Source of the DNA: Microbacterium caowuchunii | GTDB taxonomy: Bacteria > Actinomycetota > Actinomycetes > Actinomycetales > Microbacteriaceae | Assembly: GCF_008727755.1 (NCBI RefSeq) | Contig: NZ_CP044231.1 | Span: 1,116,001 to 1,180,000, forward strand | Direction of reading: 5' to 3' | Length of the DNA: 64,000 nucleotides | Shown: piece by piece, positions 10,166 to 14,693 of the stretch | Numbering within the stretch: the first letter of the stretch is position 1 | How the letters are laid out: the number at the start of each line of letters is the position of its first letter | Made by a program: the position numbers and the translations under genes | The notes under the pieces: model-generated | Database searches by the model: none | What the model was told of the DNA's origin: nothing | The model's input: only the letters and a program-made list of their open reading frames with translations

Positions 10166-11239
10166 GTGGCTCTTACCATCGGAATCGTCGGTCTTCCCAA
10201 CGTCGGCAAGTCGACGCTCTTCAACGCGCTGACCAAGAACTCAGTGCTCGCCGCGAACTACCCGTTCGCCACGATCGAGCCGAACGTCGGGGTCGTGAAC
10301 CTGCCGGACCCGCGCCTCGACACGCTCGCCGAGATCTTCGGCAGCGAGCGGATCCTGCCCGCCGCGGTCTCGTTCGTCGACATCGCGGGCATCGTCCGCG
10401 GCGCCAGCGAGGGCGAAGGGCTGGGCAACAAGTTCCTCGCGAACATCCGGGAGGCGGATGCGATCGCTCAGGTCGTGCGCGGCTTCGCCGACTCCGACGT
10501 CGTGCACGTCGACGGCGCCGTCGACCCGAAGAACGACATGGAGACCATCAACGCAGAGCTCCAGCTCGCGGATCTCGAGACGCTCGAGCGGGCCATCGCC
10601 CGGTACGAGAAGGAGGTGCGCGGCAAGAAGCTCGACCCCTCCGTGCTCGAGGCGGCTGTGGCCGCGAAGGATGCGCTGGAGCGCGGGGTGCTGCTCTCGG
10701 CATCCGGCATCGATCTGGAGCCCATCAAGGAGCTCGGGCTGCTCACCGCCAAGCCCTTCATCTTCGTGTTCAACGTCGACGAGGCCGTGCTGACGGATCC
10801 CGCGCGGAAGGCCGAGCTGGAGGCGCTCGTCGCCCCTGCCAAGGCGGTGTTCCTGGACGCGAAGATCGAGTCCGAGCTGATCGACCTCGACCCGGAGGAT
10901 GCCGCCGAACTGCTCGCCTCGACGGGTCAGGAGGAGTCCGGTCTCGACCAGCTGGCCCGGATCGGGTTCGACACGCTGGGACTGCAGACCTACCTCACGG
11001 CCGGCCCGAAGGAGGCGCGCGCCTGGACGATCGGGAAGGGCTGGAAGGCTCCCCAGGCGGCCGGCGTCATCCACACCGACTTCGAGAAGGGCTTCATCAA
11101 GGCCGAGGTCATCTCGTTCGACGACCTGGTCGCCGCGGGCTCGGTGCAGGAGGCCCGCGCGCGCGGCAAGGCACGCCTCGAGGGCAAGGACTACGTCATG
11201 CAGGACGGCGACGTGGTGGAGTTCCGCTTCAACGTGTGA
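10166..11239 (+). CDS. ychF: Redox-regulated ATPase YchF (Obg-like)
   Basis: A 357-residue P-loop protein of the Obg/HflX class that hydrolyses ATP and binds ribosomes. Visible elements are G1 LPNVGKSTLFNAL, G3 DIAGIVRGASEGEGLGNKFL, the modified G4 FVFNVDE and a C-terminal TGS domain ending in DGDVVEFRFNV. The gene appears complete. It is unusual because its last 8-11 codons and stop recur three more times downstream (11762-11797, 13046-13072 and 13665-13688), which points to repeated integration at its 3' end. GTG start. Confidence 0.96.
   Translation: MALTIGIVGLPNVGKSTLFNALTKNSVLAANYPFATIEPNVGVVNLPDPRLDTLAEIFGSERILPAAVSFVDIAGIVRGASEGEGLGNKFLANIREADAIAQVVRGFADSDVVHVDGAVDPKNDMETINAELQLADLETLERAIARYEKEVRGKKLDPSVLEAAVAAKDALERGVLLSASGIDLEPIKELGLLTAKPFIFVFNVDEAVLTDPARKAELEALVAPAKAVFLDAKIESELIDLDPEDAAELLASTGQEESGLDQLARIGFDTLGLQTYLTAGPKEARAWTIGKGWKAPQAAGVIHTDFEKGFIKAEVISFDDLVAAGSVQEARARGKARLEGKDYVMQDGDVVEFRFNV
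11204..11239 (+). repeat. ychF-terminus repeat, copy 1 (within ychF)
   Basis: These 36 bases encode DGDVVEFRFNV plus stop TGA and are the genuine gene end. They match copy 2 over 36 bases except for three G/C third-base changes and the stop codon, and copy 3 over its last 27 bases except near the ends. Confidence 0.9.
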
Positions 11240-11317
11240 CGCCTCTGGCGGATCGACATAGCCTTGGCCGTGGGTCGGGGTGCAATGTCGGTTTATGGCC
11301 CGTGTGGAGTGTGATTG

Positions 11318-11692
11318 ATGATCCTCGGTGACGACATGGTGGCGCGGCGTGTGCTCGTGCGCGATGGGAAGCCTGCACGCGTGATCGTCCTGCGCCCGCG
11401 GCCATTCGACGATGCGGGCGCTGATTGGTATGTCGATGTTCGCTTGGTGGACGAAGACGATGAGGTGATCTGGTCCAGTCGAGTCGGCGGCGTCGATGCG
11501 GTCCAGGCGCTCACGCTCGCGTTGGTGCGAATAGGGGACACGCTTGCTGCCGAGCGCGCCGAGGGTCATGAGTTGACGTTCTTGGGGGACACGGAACTGG
11601 GGTTCCCCGTCACACTGCCATCGACGGACGGGAAGAACTCCACAGCGCAGGTGATGCTGTACCAGGTGGGTCCGGCAGCAGAACCCCGGTGA
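11318..11692 (+). CDS. Hypothetical protein (DUF6968-like) in the first ychF cassette
   Basis: A 124-residue protein with the pattern RPRPF followed by a WYVDVRLVDED segment and VGGVDAVQALTLALVRIGDTL, resembling the DUF6968 proteins; function unknown. That family name is from memory. ATG at 11318 is chosen because GGAG lies eight bases upstream; TTG at 11315 is also open. Codon use is less GC-biased than in the surrounding core genes, suggesting a foreign origin. It is the only gene between copies 1 and 2 of the ychF-end repeat and has its own terminator. Confidence 0.7.
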   Translation: MILGDDMVARRVLVRDGKPARVIVLRPRPFDDAGADWYVDVRLVDEDDEVIWSSRVGGVDAVQALTLALVRIGDTLAAERAEGHELTFLGDTELGFPVTLPSTDGKNSTAQVMLYQVGPAAEPR

Positions 11693-11706
11693 ACGTCAGT
11701 GGGCCC

Positions 11707-11734
11707 GGGTTCGGGCGCACGCGAACCCGCTTTT
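11707..11734 (+). terminator. Intrinsic terminator of the first cassette gene
   Basis: GGGTTCG (11707-11713) pairs with CGAACCC (11722-11728) and is followed by gcTTTT at 11729-11734. It is one of the few T-tailed terminators in the window. Confidence 0.75.
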
Positions 11735-11761
11735 CGATCGGACGACGGTACCTTCAAGCTC

Positions 11762-11797
11762 GACGGCGACGTGGTCGAGTTCCGGTTCAACGTCTAG
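11762..11797 (+). repeat. ychF-terminus repeat, copy 2
   Basis: Thirty-six bases encode exactly DGDVVEFRFNV and stop TAG. Compared with the real ychF end, the three internal differences are all silent (GTG/GTC, CGC/CGG, GTG/GTC), so this looks like the 3' end of another ychF allele rather than a decayed duplicate. No ychF body precedes it. Confidence 0.88.
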
Positions 11798-11809
11798 CCG
11801 CGCACCGAT

Positions 11810-12724
11810 TCAACCTCTGGAGTTGATGAGTTCCTCTGCGAACTCGGTCAGGAAGCAGTCGCCCCAGCGTCGGGCTGTGGGGGAGACGGTATCCAGATTG
11901 ATCACGCCGTGGACCATGCCATCCAGATGATGATGTCTCGTGAGCCTTCCCGCACGTTGCAGATGCTCGGCCAGCGCGAGCCCTTCGTCGCGGAGTGGGT
12001 CGTACTCGCTGGTGATGATCGTCGTCATCGGGGTCGCGAGGGGTGCGCGCCGTAGTGGGTCGAGTGTCGAGCTTCCACGTATTGCGGACGTCGGTGCCCA
12101 CTTTGACACGAACCACTCGAGATCCCGGGCGTCCAGGCCCCATCCTGTGCCCCAGCTTTCAACGCTGGGCATCGACAGAGTGAGGTCCACGTTGGGGTTG
12201 ACCATGAGAAGGCGATCGACGGCGATGTCCGGCGCCTCCGCTGCCGAGAAAGCTATGAGGGCTCCCGCAGAATCTCCGGCGAGGCCCAGGGGTTGATCGC
12301 TACCAATGCTGTGACGCACGGCAGCGAGGACGGTGCGGACGTCGTCGATGGCTGCGGGGAAGGGGTGCTCGGGCGCGCGTCGGTAATCGACAGCGACGAC
12401 GTCGATTCTCCCGAGGGCGGCGAGTCGTCGGCACGCGCGGTCGTGGGAGTCGAGGTCACCGAACACGAATGCGCCGCCGTGTACGTAGACACAGGTGGTG
12501 CGGGTCTTTTCGGCGTCGTGCCGGTAGACGCGGACAGGGACAGGAACGGCGTTTTCTGCAGCCAGCACCTCATCTCGAACCACGGAGATCTCGGGTCCTG
12601 CAGGACGGGATCTCTTCTCACGGGCCCGCGAAATCGACGGTGCGGCGTATTCCTGGCTTTGGATGCTGGCAAGCCAGTCCGCTAGCTCAGGATCGGCGAT
12701 CCTCGTCGTCGCCCCGGAGGTCAT
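11810..12724 (-). CDS. Alpha/beta hydrolase, hormone-sensitive-lipase family
   Basis: A 304-residue carboxylesterase-type hydrolase. The oxyanion-hole motif YVHGGAFVFGD, the nucleophile motif GDSAGAL, an acid in SEYDPLRDEG and the His in DGMVHGV are all present, so the triad looks intact. The natural substrate is unknown. ATG at 12724 is preferred (AGGTGGGGAG upstream), but ATG at 12751 or 12766 cannot be excluded. The stop lies 12 bases after the ychF-end copy 2, in opposite orientation. GC content and codon use look lower than in neighbouring core genes, in line with transfer. Confidence 0.85.
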   Translation of the reverse strand: MTSGATTRIADPELADWLASIQSQEYAAPSISRAREKRSRPAGPEISVVRDEVLAAENAVPVPVRVYRHDAEKTRTTCVYVHGGAFVFGDLDSHDRACRRLAALGRIDVVAVDYRRAPEHPFPAAIDDVRTVLAAVRHSIGSDQPLGLAGDSAGALIAFSAAEAPDIAVDRLLMVNPNVDLTLSMPSVESWGTGWGLDARDLEWFVSKWAPTSAIRGSSTLDPLRRAPLATPMTTIITSEYDPLRDEGLALAEHLQRAGRLTRHHHLDGMVHGVINLDTVSPTARRWGDCFLTEFAEELINSRG

Positions 12725-12786
12725 CGGTAGATCTCCCCACCTCGGTGTCATGAGTCCAGTGTGCAACTCTTGCAGATGTCCGAGAG

Positions 12787-13045
12787 TCAGCCCTCGGGAA
12801 CCGTGCCCACTTGCTTTGCCGGCACCCCGAGGACAACGGCATCCGCCGGTACGTCCGTCGTGACGACGGAACCCGCGCCCACCACGCGCCGTCGCCGATC
12901 GTCACTCCCGGCAACACCGTCACGTTGGCGCCGAACCATACGCCCCGTCCGATCACGACCCGGGCCGGGTGCAACTCCGCCCGTCGACTCGGCAGCATGT
13001 CGTGGTTCAAAGAGCCTGGCGCATGATGCTCATCGGTGACGGAAT
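12787..13045 (-). pseudogene. Remnant of a hexapeptide-repeat O-acetyltransferase (frameshifted, 5'-truncated)
   Basis: On the minus strand, residues HHAPGSLNHDMLPSRR and RGVWFGANVTVLPGVTIGDGA belong to a left-handed beta-helix acetyltransferase (maltose/nodulation acetyltransferase type). One base is then missing near 12890. After it, the +1 frame continues the protein perfectly with VVGAGSVVTTDVPADA and VVLGVPAKQVGTVPEG to the TGA at 12787-12789. The 5' half of the gene is absent: the coding similarity reaches the ychF-end copy 3 at 13046 and stops. It is thus cut by the repeat and broken by a frameshift, so it should be inactive. Confidence 0.85.
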
Positions 13046-13072
13046 GTCGTGGAGTTCCGCTTCAACGTGTAA
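13046..13072 (+). repeat. ychF-terminus repeat, copy 3
   Basis: Twenty-seven bases encode VVEFRFNV and stop TAA. They differ from ychF only in the first Val codon (GTC for GTG) and in the stop codon. The bases before it bear no similarity to ychF. Confidence 0.88.
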
Positions 13073-13577
13073 TCGGGTCGTCTGGAGTCGCTGGCTCGGT
13101 TAGCGCTGCGGCGTAGTTGCGCATCGAGCGCTGATATCGAGGCAATGCCTCGATTTGGGCCTCGATGGCTACCCGGAGCGCCTCATCTTTGCGGCCCGCG
13201 CTATGCAGCGCCAGAGCCAGCACGACACGAGGTGCCGAGCCTGTCGATTCGTGGGTCGGGGCGGCGCTCAAGACGGCGATGGCTTCATCGAGTCGGCCGA
13301 GGTTGCGCAGAGTGGATCCGTACTGCACCGCGAGTTGAGCATGCCGAGCGTCATCGAGGGTGAGTTCGAGCGCGCGCTCATACTCCGCGCCTGCCTCAGC
13401 CTCGAATCCCATCGAGTCGTACATGCTCGCGAGCTCGAATGCGCCCCGGCCGTCGCGCGCCGGGCACGCGTCAGCCAACTCCCGCATGGCCTTGACCCCT
13501 TCGTCGCGGCTGAGGGAGTCGAAGTTGGCCCAGAGGTCCGTGACGGAGGCTTCCCATTGTTTGAGGTCTGCCGGCAT
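13062..13577 (-). CDS. Tetratricopeptide-repeat protein
   Basis: A 171-residue protein built of helical repeats, with TPR-like stretches such as GAFELASMYDSMGFEAEAGAEYERAL and LAVQYGSTLRNLGRLDEAIAVL. Short soluble TPR proteins like this usually mediate protein contacts; the specific role is unknown. ATG at 13577 is chosen because the protein pattern begins there (MPADLKQWEASV). The stop codon TGA (13062-13064) is supplied by antisense sequence of ychF-end copy 3, so the native C-terminus may have been replaced at the junction. Confidence 0.75.
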   Translation of the reverse strand: MPADLKQWEASVTDLWANFDSLSRDEGVKAMRELADACPARDGRGAFELASMYDSMGFEAEAGAEYERALELTLDDARHAQLAVQYGSTLRNLGRLDEAIAVLSAAPTHESTGSAPRVVLALALHSAGRKDEALRVAIEAQIEALPRYQRSMRNYAAALTEPATPDDPITR

Positions 13578-13664
13578 GGAACCTAGTTTGTCAGGCAGCG
13601 ACCTCACGACGTCGGGACACAACTGGTGGGCATCGCTGGCAGAGGTTGCTCGGAACGTAACCCG

Positions 13665-13688
13665 GTCGAGTTCCGCTTCACCGTGTAG
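13665..13688 (+). repeat. ychF-terminus repeat, copy 4
   Basis: Twenty-four bases encode VEFRFTV and stop TAG, one amino-acid change (Asn to Thr) from the ychF end. It is the last copy and lies 15 bases before an 87-bp hairpin element. Confidence 0.8.
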
Positions 13689-13703
13689 CCCTGCTCTCCC
13701 TTC

Positions 13704-13790
13704 CCGCCGAACCACCCCTTTGTCGCCGAGCCACCCCTTTCGCGGGGGCGGCTAGAGGGGTGGGGCGGCGCGACAGGGGTGGGTCGGCGG
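13704..13790 (+). repeat. 87-bp imperfect hairpin element, copy 1
   Basis: An intergenic palindrome whose left arm contains two ACCACCCCTTT/GCCACCCCTTT blocks and whose right arm contains their complements (AGAGGGGTGGG, ACAGGGGTGGG). The outer ends CCGCCGA and TCGGCGG pair. A second copy in the same orientation lies at 14607-14693, so this is a dispersed repeat family rather than a single terminator. Confidence 0.8.
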
Positions 13791-14240: not shown

Positions 14241-14606
14241 GGATTCATCCTTCCAGCACCACGCCCGTGACGAACGGCGGCCATGCTCCCAGGTTGCTCG
14301 TCGAACCGCTGCTGGCTGCTCATGTGGCGCGCTCAGGGCGTTCCGACGCTGTGCGCGCTGGCGAATCCGCGCCCCGCTCCTGACGTTCGGGTCGCTCCTG
14401 CGCGCTGGTCGGGGGTCTGATCGTGCCGACCGTGGTTCTGCTCCTCATCGCGCGGGCGGGTCGATCAGTGGGATGGGTACGGACGGTCTCGTACGCGATG
14501 CTCGTGGGGTTGGCCGTCGTCGGCCTGGGCGCGGTGCTGTTCTCGGGAGGGTTCACCATCCCGCTCGTCCCCCACCCCACGTGCTGCCCCCCGCCCCCCT
14601 TCCCAC

Positions 14607-14693
14607 TCGCCGAACCACCCCGTTACCGCCCAGCCACCCCTTTCGCAGCGGCCACCAGAGGGATGGCTCGGCCCTACAGGGGTGGGTCGGCGA
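14607..14693 (+). repeat. 87-bp imperfect hairpin element, copy 2
   Basis: Same length, orientation and block order as the copy at 13704-13790, with the central AGCCACCCCTTTCGC block and the right-arm ACAGGGGTGGGTCGGCG preserved and most changes in the loop-proximal part. Outer ends TCGCCGA and TCGGCGA pair. Confidence 0.8.

Follow-up and report, generated by a model that had tools for sequence, protein, structure and literature searches.

Downstream of ychF in Microbacterium caowuchunii, within the 64,000-nt stretch of contig NZ_CP044231.1 analysed here (positions 1,116,001 to 1,180,000; hereafter the window), the 3′ end of the gene recurs three times among accessory genes, and it is probable that this 3′ end serves a family of large serine recombinases as attachment site and that the repeats represent the joints of an array of small mobile cassettes. 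Comparison of sequences shows an extended site with sharp limits, exchange of cassettes between hosts, empty sites, a bias of right halves toward silent differences, and a recombinase gene adjoining the site. From these we infer a serine recombinase as the enzyme, its action in trans, a circular intermediate and the renewal of the target.

A first-pass annotation of the window had viewed the locus as a hotspot where incoming DNA brings a replacement ychF end and leaves the older end distal, in the manner of att sites, with the mobilising enzyme acting in trans. This proposal is supported by empty sites, by whole cassettes in unrelated hosts that end at sites, and by right halves whose differences are mostly silent. 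What has to be added to it is a 26-bp left half of the site, a spread far past Microbacteriaceae and, as the likely enzyme, a large serine recombinase.

The repeated ychF end and its site

The features of the locus are as follows.

10166-11239, + strand: ychF (PF06071 and PF01926), the last codons of which serve as right half of the attachment site on the chromosome
11190-11239, + strand: site 1, the ychF junction; left half ychF coding; right half 11216-11239 (GTGGAGTTCCGCTTCAACGTGTGA), score 40.8
11216-11773, + strand: cassette 1 (558 bp), the interval between sites 1 and 2
11315-11692, + strand: DUF6968 gene in cassette 1 (PF22302, E 9.9e-12)
11748-11797, + strand: site 2; left half ychF-like (ctcgacggcgacgtg), score 5.7; right half 11774-11797, score 40.3
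11774-13048, + strand: cassette 2 (1275 bp), the interval between sites 2 and 3
11810-12766, − strand: esterase gene in cassette 2 (PF07859, E 3.2e-45)
12687-13010, − strand: hexapeptide-acetyltransferase remnant in cassette 2 (PF00132, E 2.2e-7)
13023-13072, + strand: site 3; cassette-type left half, score 20.4; right half 13049-13072, score 42.6
13049-13664, + strand: cassette 3 (616 bp), with homologous DNA in 8 other loci
13062-13715 (open reading frame as listed), − strand: TPR gene in cassette 3 (PF12688, E 5.3e-28)
13639-13688, + strand: site 4, distal; cassette-type left half (gcagaggttgctcggaacgtaacccg), score 4.9; right half 13665-13688, score 33.3, with one replacement (VEFRFTV*)

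A weight-matrix scan of both strands of the whole window placed site starts at 11216, 11774, 13049 and 13665, all on the + strand, and nowhere else; the first three encode VEFRFNV* and the fourth VEFRFTV*. With up to two mismatches allowed, the 3′-end pattern occurs at exactly these four places in the 3.26-Mb one-contig genome, all within 2.5 kb. The reversed pattern has no match in the genome, and shuffled versions of the window contain no match to the 21-base core. The four copies reported in the first-pass annotation are thereby borne out, and they are not dispersed, since all four lie at ychF. A second full YchF was not found in the genome, which holds two weaker matches, 39-40% identical over partial lengths. 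Copy 2 does differ from ychF over 36 bases by three silent G/C changes, as had been described, and its stop codon differs as well. The atypical codon use ascribed to the intervening genes is also seen: GC content at third codon positions is 0.71-0.76 in the DUF6968, esterase, hexapeptide-remnant and TPR genes vs 0.82-0.93 in the five neighbours measured. The TPR gene probably starts near 13579, judging from homology that stops near 13594. Distal to the array, a 94-nt direct repeat (81%; 13696-13789 and 14599-14692) that is rich in ACCCCTTT flanks a GNAT gene.

The repeated unit had been taken to be the ychF end alone; that part of the description holds, but its extent does not, since a 26-bp left half precedes the ychF end. 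Copies 3 and 4 have a left half of the cassette type, that of copy 2 resembles ychF, and the low left score of site 4 arises because its left half looks shifted by one base. In a profile built from 270 seed sites (200 cassette sites and 70 ychF junctions), conservation spans positions −26 to +23 and ends abruptly at both limits. The left half of cassette sites (−26 to −1) is not ychF sequence and reads approximately CAGAGGTTGGTCCGTGCCGGAACGTG, whereas the right half, GTGGAGTTCCGSTTYAACGTNTRR, encodes VEFRFNV-stop. The centre is GT at 0/+1 (99% and 97%), with arms CGGAAC (−9 to −4) and GTTCCG (+5 to +10) that are found in cassette-type sites and are absent from the ychF junction. Across 94 loci (1.39 Mb), 355 sites lie on the array strand and one on the other, a count made with matrices trained on the same loci, most of which were chosen for multiple copies; selection by the left half only returned 157 sites and seven on the control strand.

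Among 109 distinct right halves that were selected by their left half and show some likeness, 265 codon differences are silent and 92 are replacements, compared with 19% silent for random single changes of the consensus, and the stop is retained in 92. Further ychF-like ends were also seen (VEFRFNN* and VEFRFSN*). The silent excess suggests that right halves are former working ychF ends. Pairs of sites that share one flank narrow the position of the exchange: in 15 pairs with a common left flank and differing right flanks (three to four of which involve L222 and look spurious) identity is kept to about −4, in 48 pairs with a common right flank it begins at about +3, and the region between is near background. 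These comparisons place the crossover within the spacer that holds the GT, between about −4 and +5. Doubled sites exactly 23 bp apart, the second copy often being GTCGCGTTCCGCYTCAACRTCTG, were seen in L042 (12553/12576), L051 (5235/5258), L052 (3421/3444), L054 (3246/3269) and L247 (2184/2207).

Distribution of the arrays and exchange of cassettes

Of 295 genomes of the genus, 276 contain the ychF-end pattern, and at least 46, counted by eye, carry two or more co-located copies; this lower bound comprises 38 of 42 re-listed genomes, the present genome and seven more among the matches listed. Presence and absence of copies, proposed in the first-pass annotation as a check on the hotspot, does vary, from 1 to ∼11 co-located copies between species, the largest array (G026) having 11 matches across 40 kb. 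Within the family the pattern matched 319 of 398 genomes, with co-located copies in at least 20 of 85 sampled genera (by eye). Extra downstream copies are clear in 12 of 80 named ychF loci, including those of Demequina, Arthrobacter castelli, Kocuria marina, Cryobacterium and Brevibacterium, and upstream and reverse-strand controls gave zero in all 80; about ten more of these loci have weak matches that lack the left half. Six of 396 genomes sampled across the phylum contain two or more matches, all of them inside the class, and four of these from outside the family were examined and have sites. At least four good sites are present in Nocardia farcinica NCTC 11134. The 50-base site consensus had one match in plasmids and none in phage records.

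The 236 intervals between sites have a median length of 1181.5 bp (∼1.2 kb). With loci L082 and L144 left out of the sharing counts (they repeat L073 and L043, respectively), 34 of 232 cassettes have a counterpart at another locus that covers 90% or more of their length with an identity of at least 80%, making 59 directed pairs. A Microbacterium cassette (L045, 5621-6934) is 99.85% identical over 1313 bp to one in N. farcinica (L241), the ychF genes of the two hosts being 76.7% identical, and a cassette of L042 (12553-14057) is 99.2% identical to one in L247, from another family (ychF, 74.7%); L042 and L050 likewise share a cassette at 99.3% (ychF, 75.5%). Near-identical cassettes of 0.8-3.8 kb that are intact in unrelated hosts indicate that cassettes move as such. 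They also argue against remnants of many independent prophages or other large elements that used ychF and decayed to ∼1 kb each, as does cargo consisting of single accessory genes; full elements with both an integrase and a site do exist (L226, L230, L233 and L237), and this origin is nonetheless considered improbable.

Homologues of the TPR cassette of the window start right at the ychF junction in L062 and at an internal site in L051, L203 and L220; those in the remaining four of the eight loci have no site at their start. Empty sites are represented by the flank beyond the last site of L072, which comes 37-86 bp after ychF in four single-copy loci (L035, L019, L078 and L033) at 73-77% identity.

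Homologous recombination, named in the first-pass annotation as one route of spread, fails to account for the defined left half. In its general form, repeated homologous recombination or duplication would spread pieces that end in ychF ends by chance; in its favour are ychF-like left halves such as that of copy 2 in the window, together with longer second ychF ends in L194, L087 and L222. Against it stand a defined non-ychF left half, breakpoints that fall within the same few bases across many hosts, and cassettes that are near-identical although their hosts have 75% identical ychF, and the explanation is regarded as very improbable. Second, longer ychF 3′ pieces lie kilobases downstream in L194 (8077), L096 (6340), L087 (16750-16904) and L222 (3026-3167), suggesting larger insertions.

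Cassette cargo was grouped into 227 clusters, from which 110 representatives were taken and, after three likely spurious open reading frames had been dropped, 107 were scanned against Pfam and PADLOC. Pfam matches include GNAT acetyltransferases, AAA_33, TetR, MerR, SnoaL, Abi_2 and McrBC, and PADLOC matches include AbiD, AriA and others, mostly one each. Gene orientation inside cassettes is mixed (316 + and 230 − among 546 open reading frame calls). With 15 members, the largest cluster is a HigA/HigB-like pair whose upstream region is conserved. Many arrays (L042 9901, L047 2907, L064 2258, L124 16803 and others) contain a HigB/HigA-like cassette head of ∼0.6 kb, which falls into two sequence families and in which a gcgttattgacg..gcgttata..GTG start is conserved.

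A large serine recombinase as candidate enzyme

In a viral collection, 12 contigs match the ychF end and five of these carry a cassette-type site (L230, L231, L233, L235 and L237); all five have a ∼450-aa serine recombinase (PF00239 and PF07508) whose start adjoins the site. Searching the viral collection by recombinase instead, a site was found in six of 70 loci, always 35-56 bp from the recombinase start. Of 398 family genomes searched by recombinase alignment alone, 69 match at 1e-60 and 30 loci were examined. A site lies 25-43 bp from the recombinase start in six of the best seven (G608, which is a query row, G383, G328, G370, G434 and G550, where the distance is 10 or 43 bp depending on the choice of start codon) and in none of the other 23 examined. 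In G618, a truncated recombinase and a site are 48 bp apart, as judged by coordinates. Relatives of these enzymes with solved structures include 9iu2 and the TP901-1 integrase.

The recombinases found in the source genome are XerC, XerD and one ∼50-residue resolvase-like PF00239 fragment; no serine recombinase of the candidate family was matched there at 1e-60, and the PF00239 matches in 10 genomes include none at array coordinates. A site-like stretch near serine recombinases in L242 and L243, which represent the same element, was dropped on a left score of −7. Related serine recombinases lie directly after the ychF stop in Schaalia (L111, 11096-12643), with an interrupted frame and a ychF ending in ..TSKK*, and in truncated form in Corynebacterium (L151, 11105-11254).

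Tyrosine integrases also target ychF: viral contigs L229/L232 and L240 contain a ychF-end segment followed 60-90 bp on by an integrase of 250-258 aa, L237 has a tyrosine integrase on the other side of its site, and inverted arms around an 8-bp spacer would suit such an enzyme. A tyrosine recombinase of a phage or integrative element, or the XerC/XerD present in the source genome, could accordingly be what moves the cassettes, with serine recombinases merely sharing the site. This alternative is regarded as unlikely. No tyrosine recombinase was detected in the 94 array loci, either with a profile of 31 enzymes (blind to serine recombinases) or by tblastn, and an integrase of the L229/L240 type was found in none of 34 array genomes at E 1e-10, in a search without a positive control. 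The dif-like sequence ATAATGCACATTATGTCAR occurs once in each of six genomes and is unlike the site. The non-Xer tyrosine recombinases of array genomes show no common family among the matches listed.

The tyrosine-integrase segments at the ychF end occupy 8563-9398 of L229 and 6894-7736 of L240. DNA resembling the L237 tyrosine recombinase (66-68% identity) is located soon after ychF in L120, L132 and L135 (Blastococcus, Modestobacter and Amycolatopsis) and 4 kb past ychF in Nocardioides (L127, 15359-15879). Of the phage contigs, L234 and L238 have their start within ychF, and L236 includes the complete gene.

Proposed mechanism and relation to known systems

It is proposed that a cassette consists of a right half that is a complete ychF 3′ end, followed by cargo and a left half that is the 26-bp arm, such that the circular form would carry a joined ∼50-bp site. 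With the crossover placed at the central GT of ychF or close to it, the right half of the cassette would come to lie behind the ychF body, restoring frame and stop, and the displaced older ychF end would then lie distal to the cassette left half. The new junction, again a ychF left half joined to a ychF-coding right half, would renew the target for the next cassette. Cassettes that lack an integrase would be inserted in trans, pushing older ones outward.

Several observations weigh against attributing the arrays to a serine recombinase acting in this way. Recombination at ychF appears here only through its products in sequenced genomes, and the crossover data fit a 2-bp as well as a 6-8-bp exchange, and serine as well as tyrosine chemistry. 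Five of the six viral loci recovered by recombinase were query rows, and the right half of the one new locus (L252) has diverged; the fifth best recombinase in the family search (G603) has no site nearby. Full-length serine recombinases are present in only two of the 94 array loci (L226 and L204), with a weak fragment in L122, so that most arrays, that of the window included, would be without their enzyme. The ychF of N. farcinica has the different ending VEFRHS*, and it is another 5.3 kb to the first of the sites. Finally, recombination of attL with attP is not a reaction of textbook serine integrases (PMC3783163), and repeated entry at one target therefore needs the equivalence of sites that is proposed here.

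A broader possibility, put forward tentatively and with rather less than even expectation, is that the arrays are a serine-recombinase analogue of the integron, a reversible, self-renewing platform for cassette trading shared across Actinomycetes. If so, the usual distinctions of attB from attL and of attP from attR would vanish, since every right half must encode the ychF end. The recombinase alone could then insert and excise at ychF by the same reaction with no directionality factor, and the reading frame of the host would have made a one-way phage integrase reversible.

The arrays resemble integrons and clusters of attC sites lacking integron-integrases (CALINs) in their tandem small cassettes with one site each, a fixed entry point, toxin-antitoxin and acetyltransferase cargo, and the many arrays without an enzyme. 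Integrons are distinguished by an IntI-type tyrosine integrase beside attI and by structure-recognised attC sites, neither of which is seen at ychF, where sites of double-strand type are conserved in sequence, the enzyme is likely a serine recombinase and a host gene end serves as the fixed site. True integrons that use folded attC sites, their integrase being located elsewhere or lost, would agree with tandem single-gene cassettes, a single site orientation, that same cargo and entry beside a fixed site, yet they are a very improbable explanation: site sequence is conserved, the arms pair without covariation beyond that of shuffled pairs (z −0.46 and −0.32), genes are mixed in orientation within cassettes, and no integrase lies beside the fixed site. 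In addition, the IntegronFinder 2.0 article reports no complete integron in Actinobacteria (PMC9024848).

In layout the arrays match the staphylococcal and Enterococcus cassette chromosomes (SCC and ECC), which employ serine recombinases at the end of a housekeeping gene and have 50-bp repeats, with inverted repeats in attR and the circle (PMC6222049); here too the repeats are ∼50 bp and an inverted repeat is found in cassette-type sites. The Ccr recombinases of SCC and ECC act at the 3′ end of rlmH, whereas the site described here is the 3′ end of ychF, and SCC and ECC are large islands of Firmicutes that carry ccr, in contrast to units of ∼1.2 kb median length without a recombinase in Actinomycetes. 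Against NCBIfam models, recombinases adjoining ychF sites score 60-68 (CcrB), 28-55 (CcrA) and 40-48 bits (CcrC), below the cut-offs of 900, 700 and 900, respectively, and are thus not Ccr proteins. Phage serine integrases with attB in a host gene (TP901-1 type and others) share the PF00239 and PF07508 domains, a ∼50-bp site with a central dinucleotide and the position of the site beside the integrase gene. They differ in that the right half of the element at ychF must code for the host gene end, making attB and attL alike, and in that integrase-free ∼1-kb units accumulate there. Pneumococcal prophages are also known to use the ychF neighbourhood (PMC8637289; PMC10383233), although their site lies upstream of ychF and has another sequence, and the available parts of these accounts describe no cassette array. 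No published account of ychF cassettes was found in open-licence PMC, subscription papers and preprints being outside that search.

Actinobacteria have been reported to lack complete integrons (PMC9024848), yet a common array of ∼1-kb cassettes at one gene crosses orders among them. The mechanistic question this raises is whether coding constraint on one half-site abolishes the directionality of a serine integrase, and the family may yield new compact integrase tools. With a searchable site and a candidate enzyme in hand, cassette capture in actinobacteria becomes directly testable.

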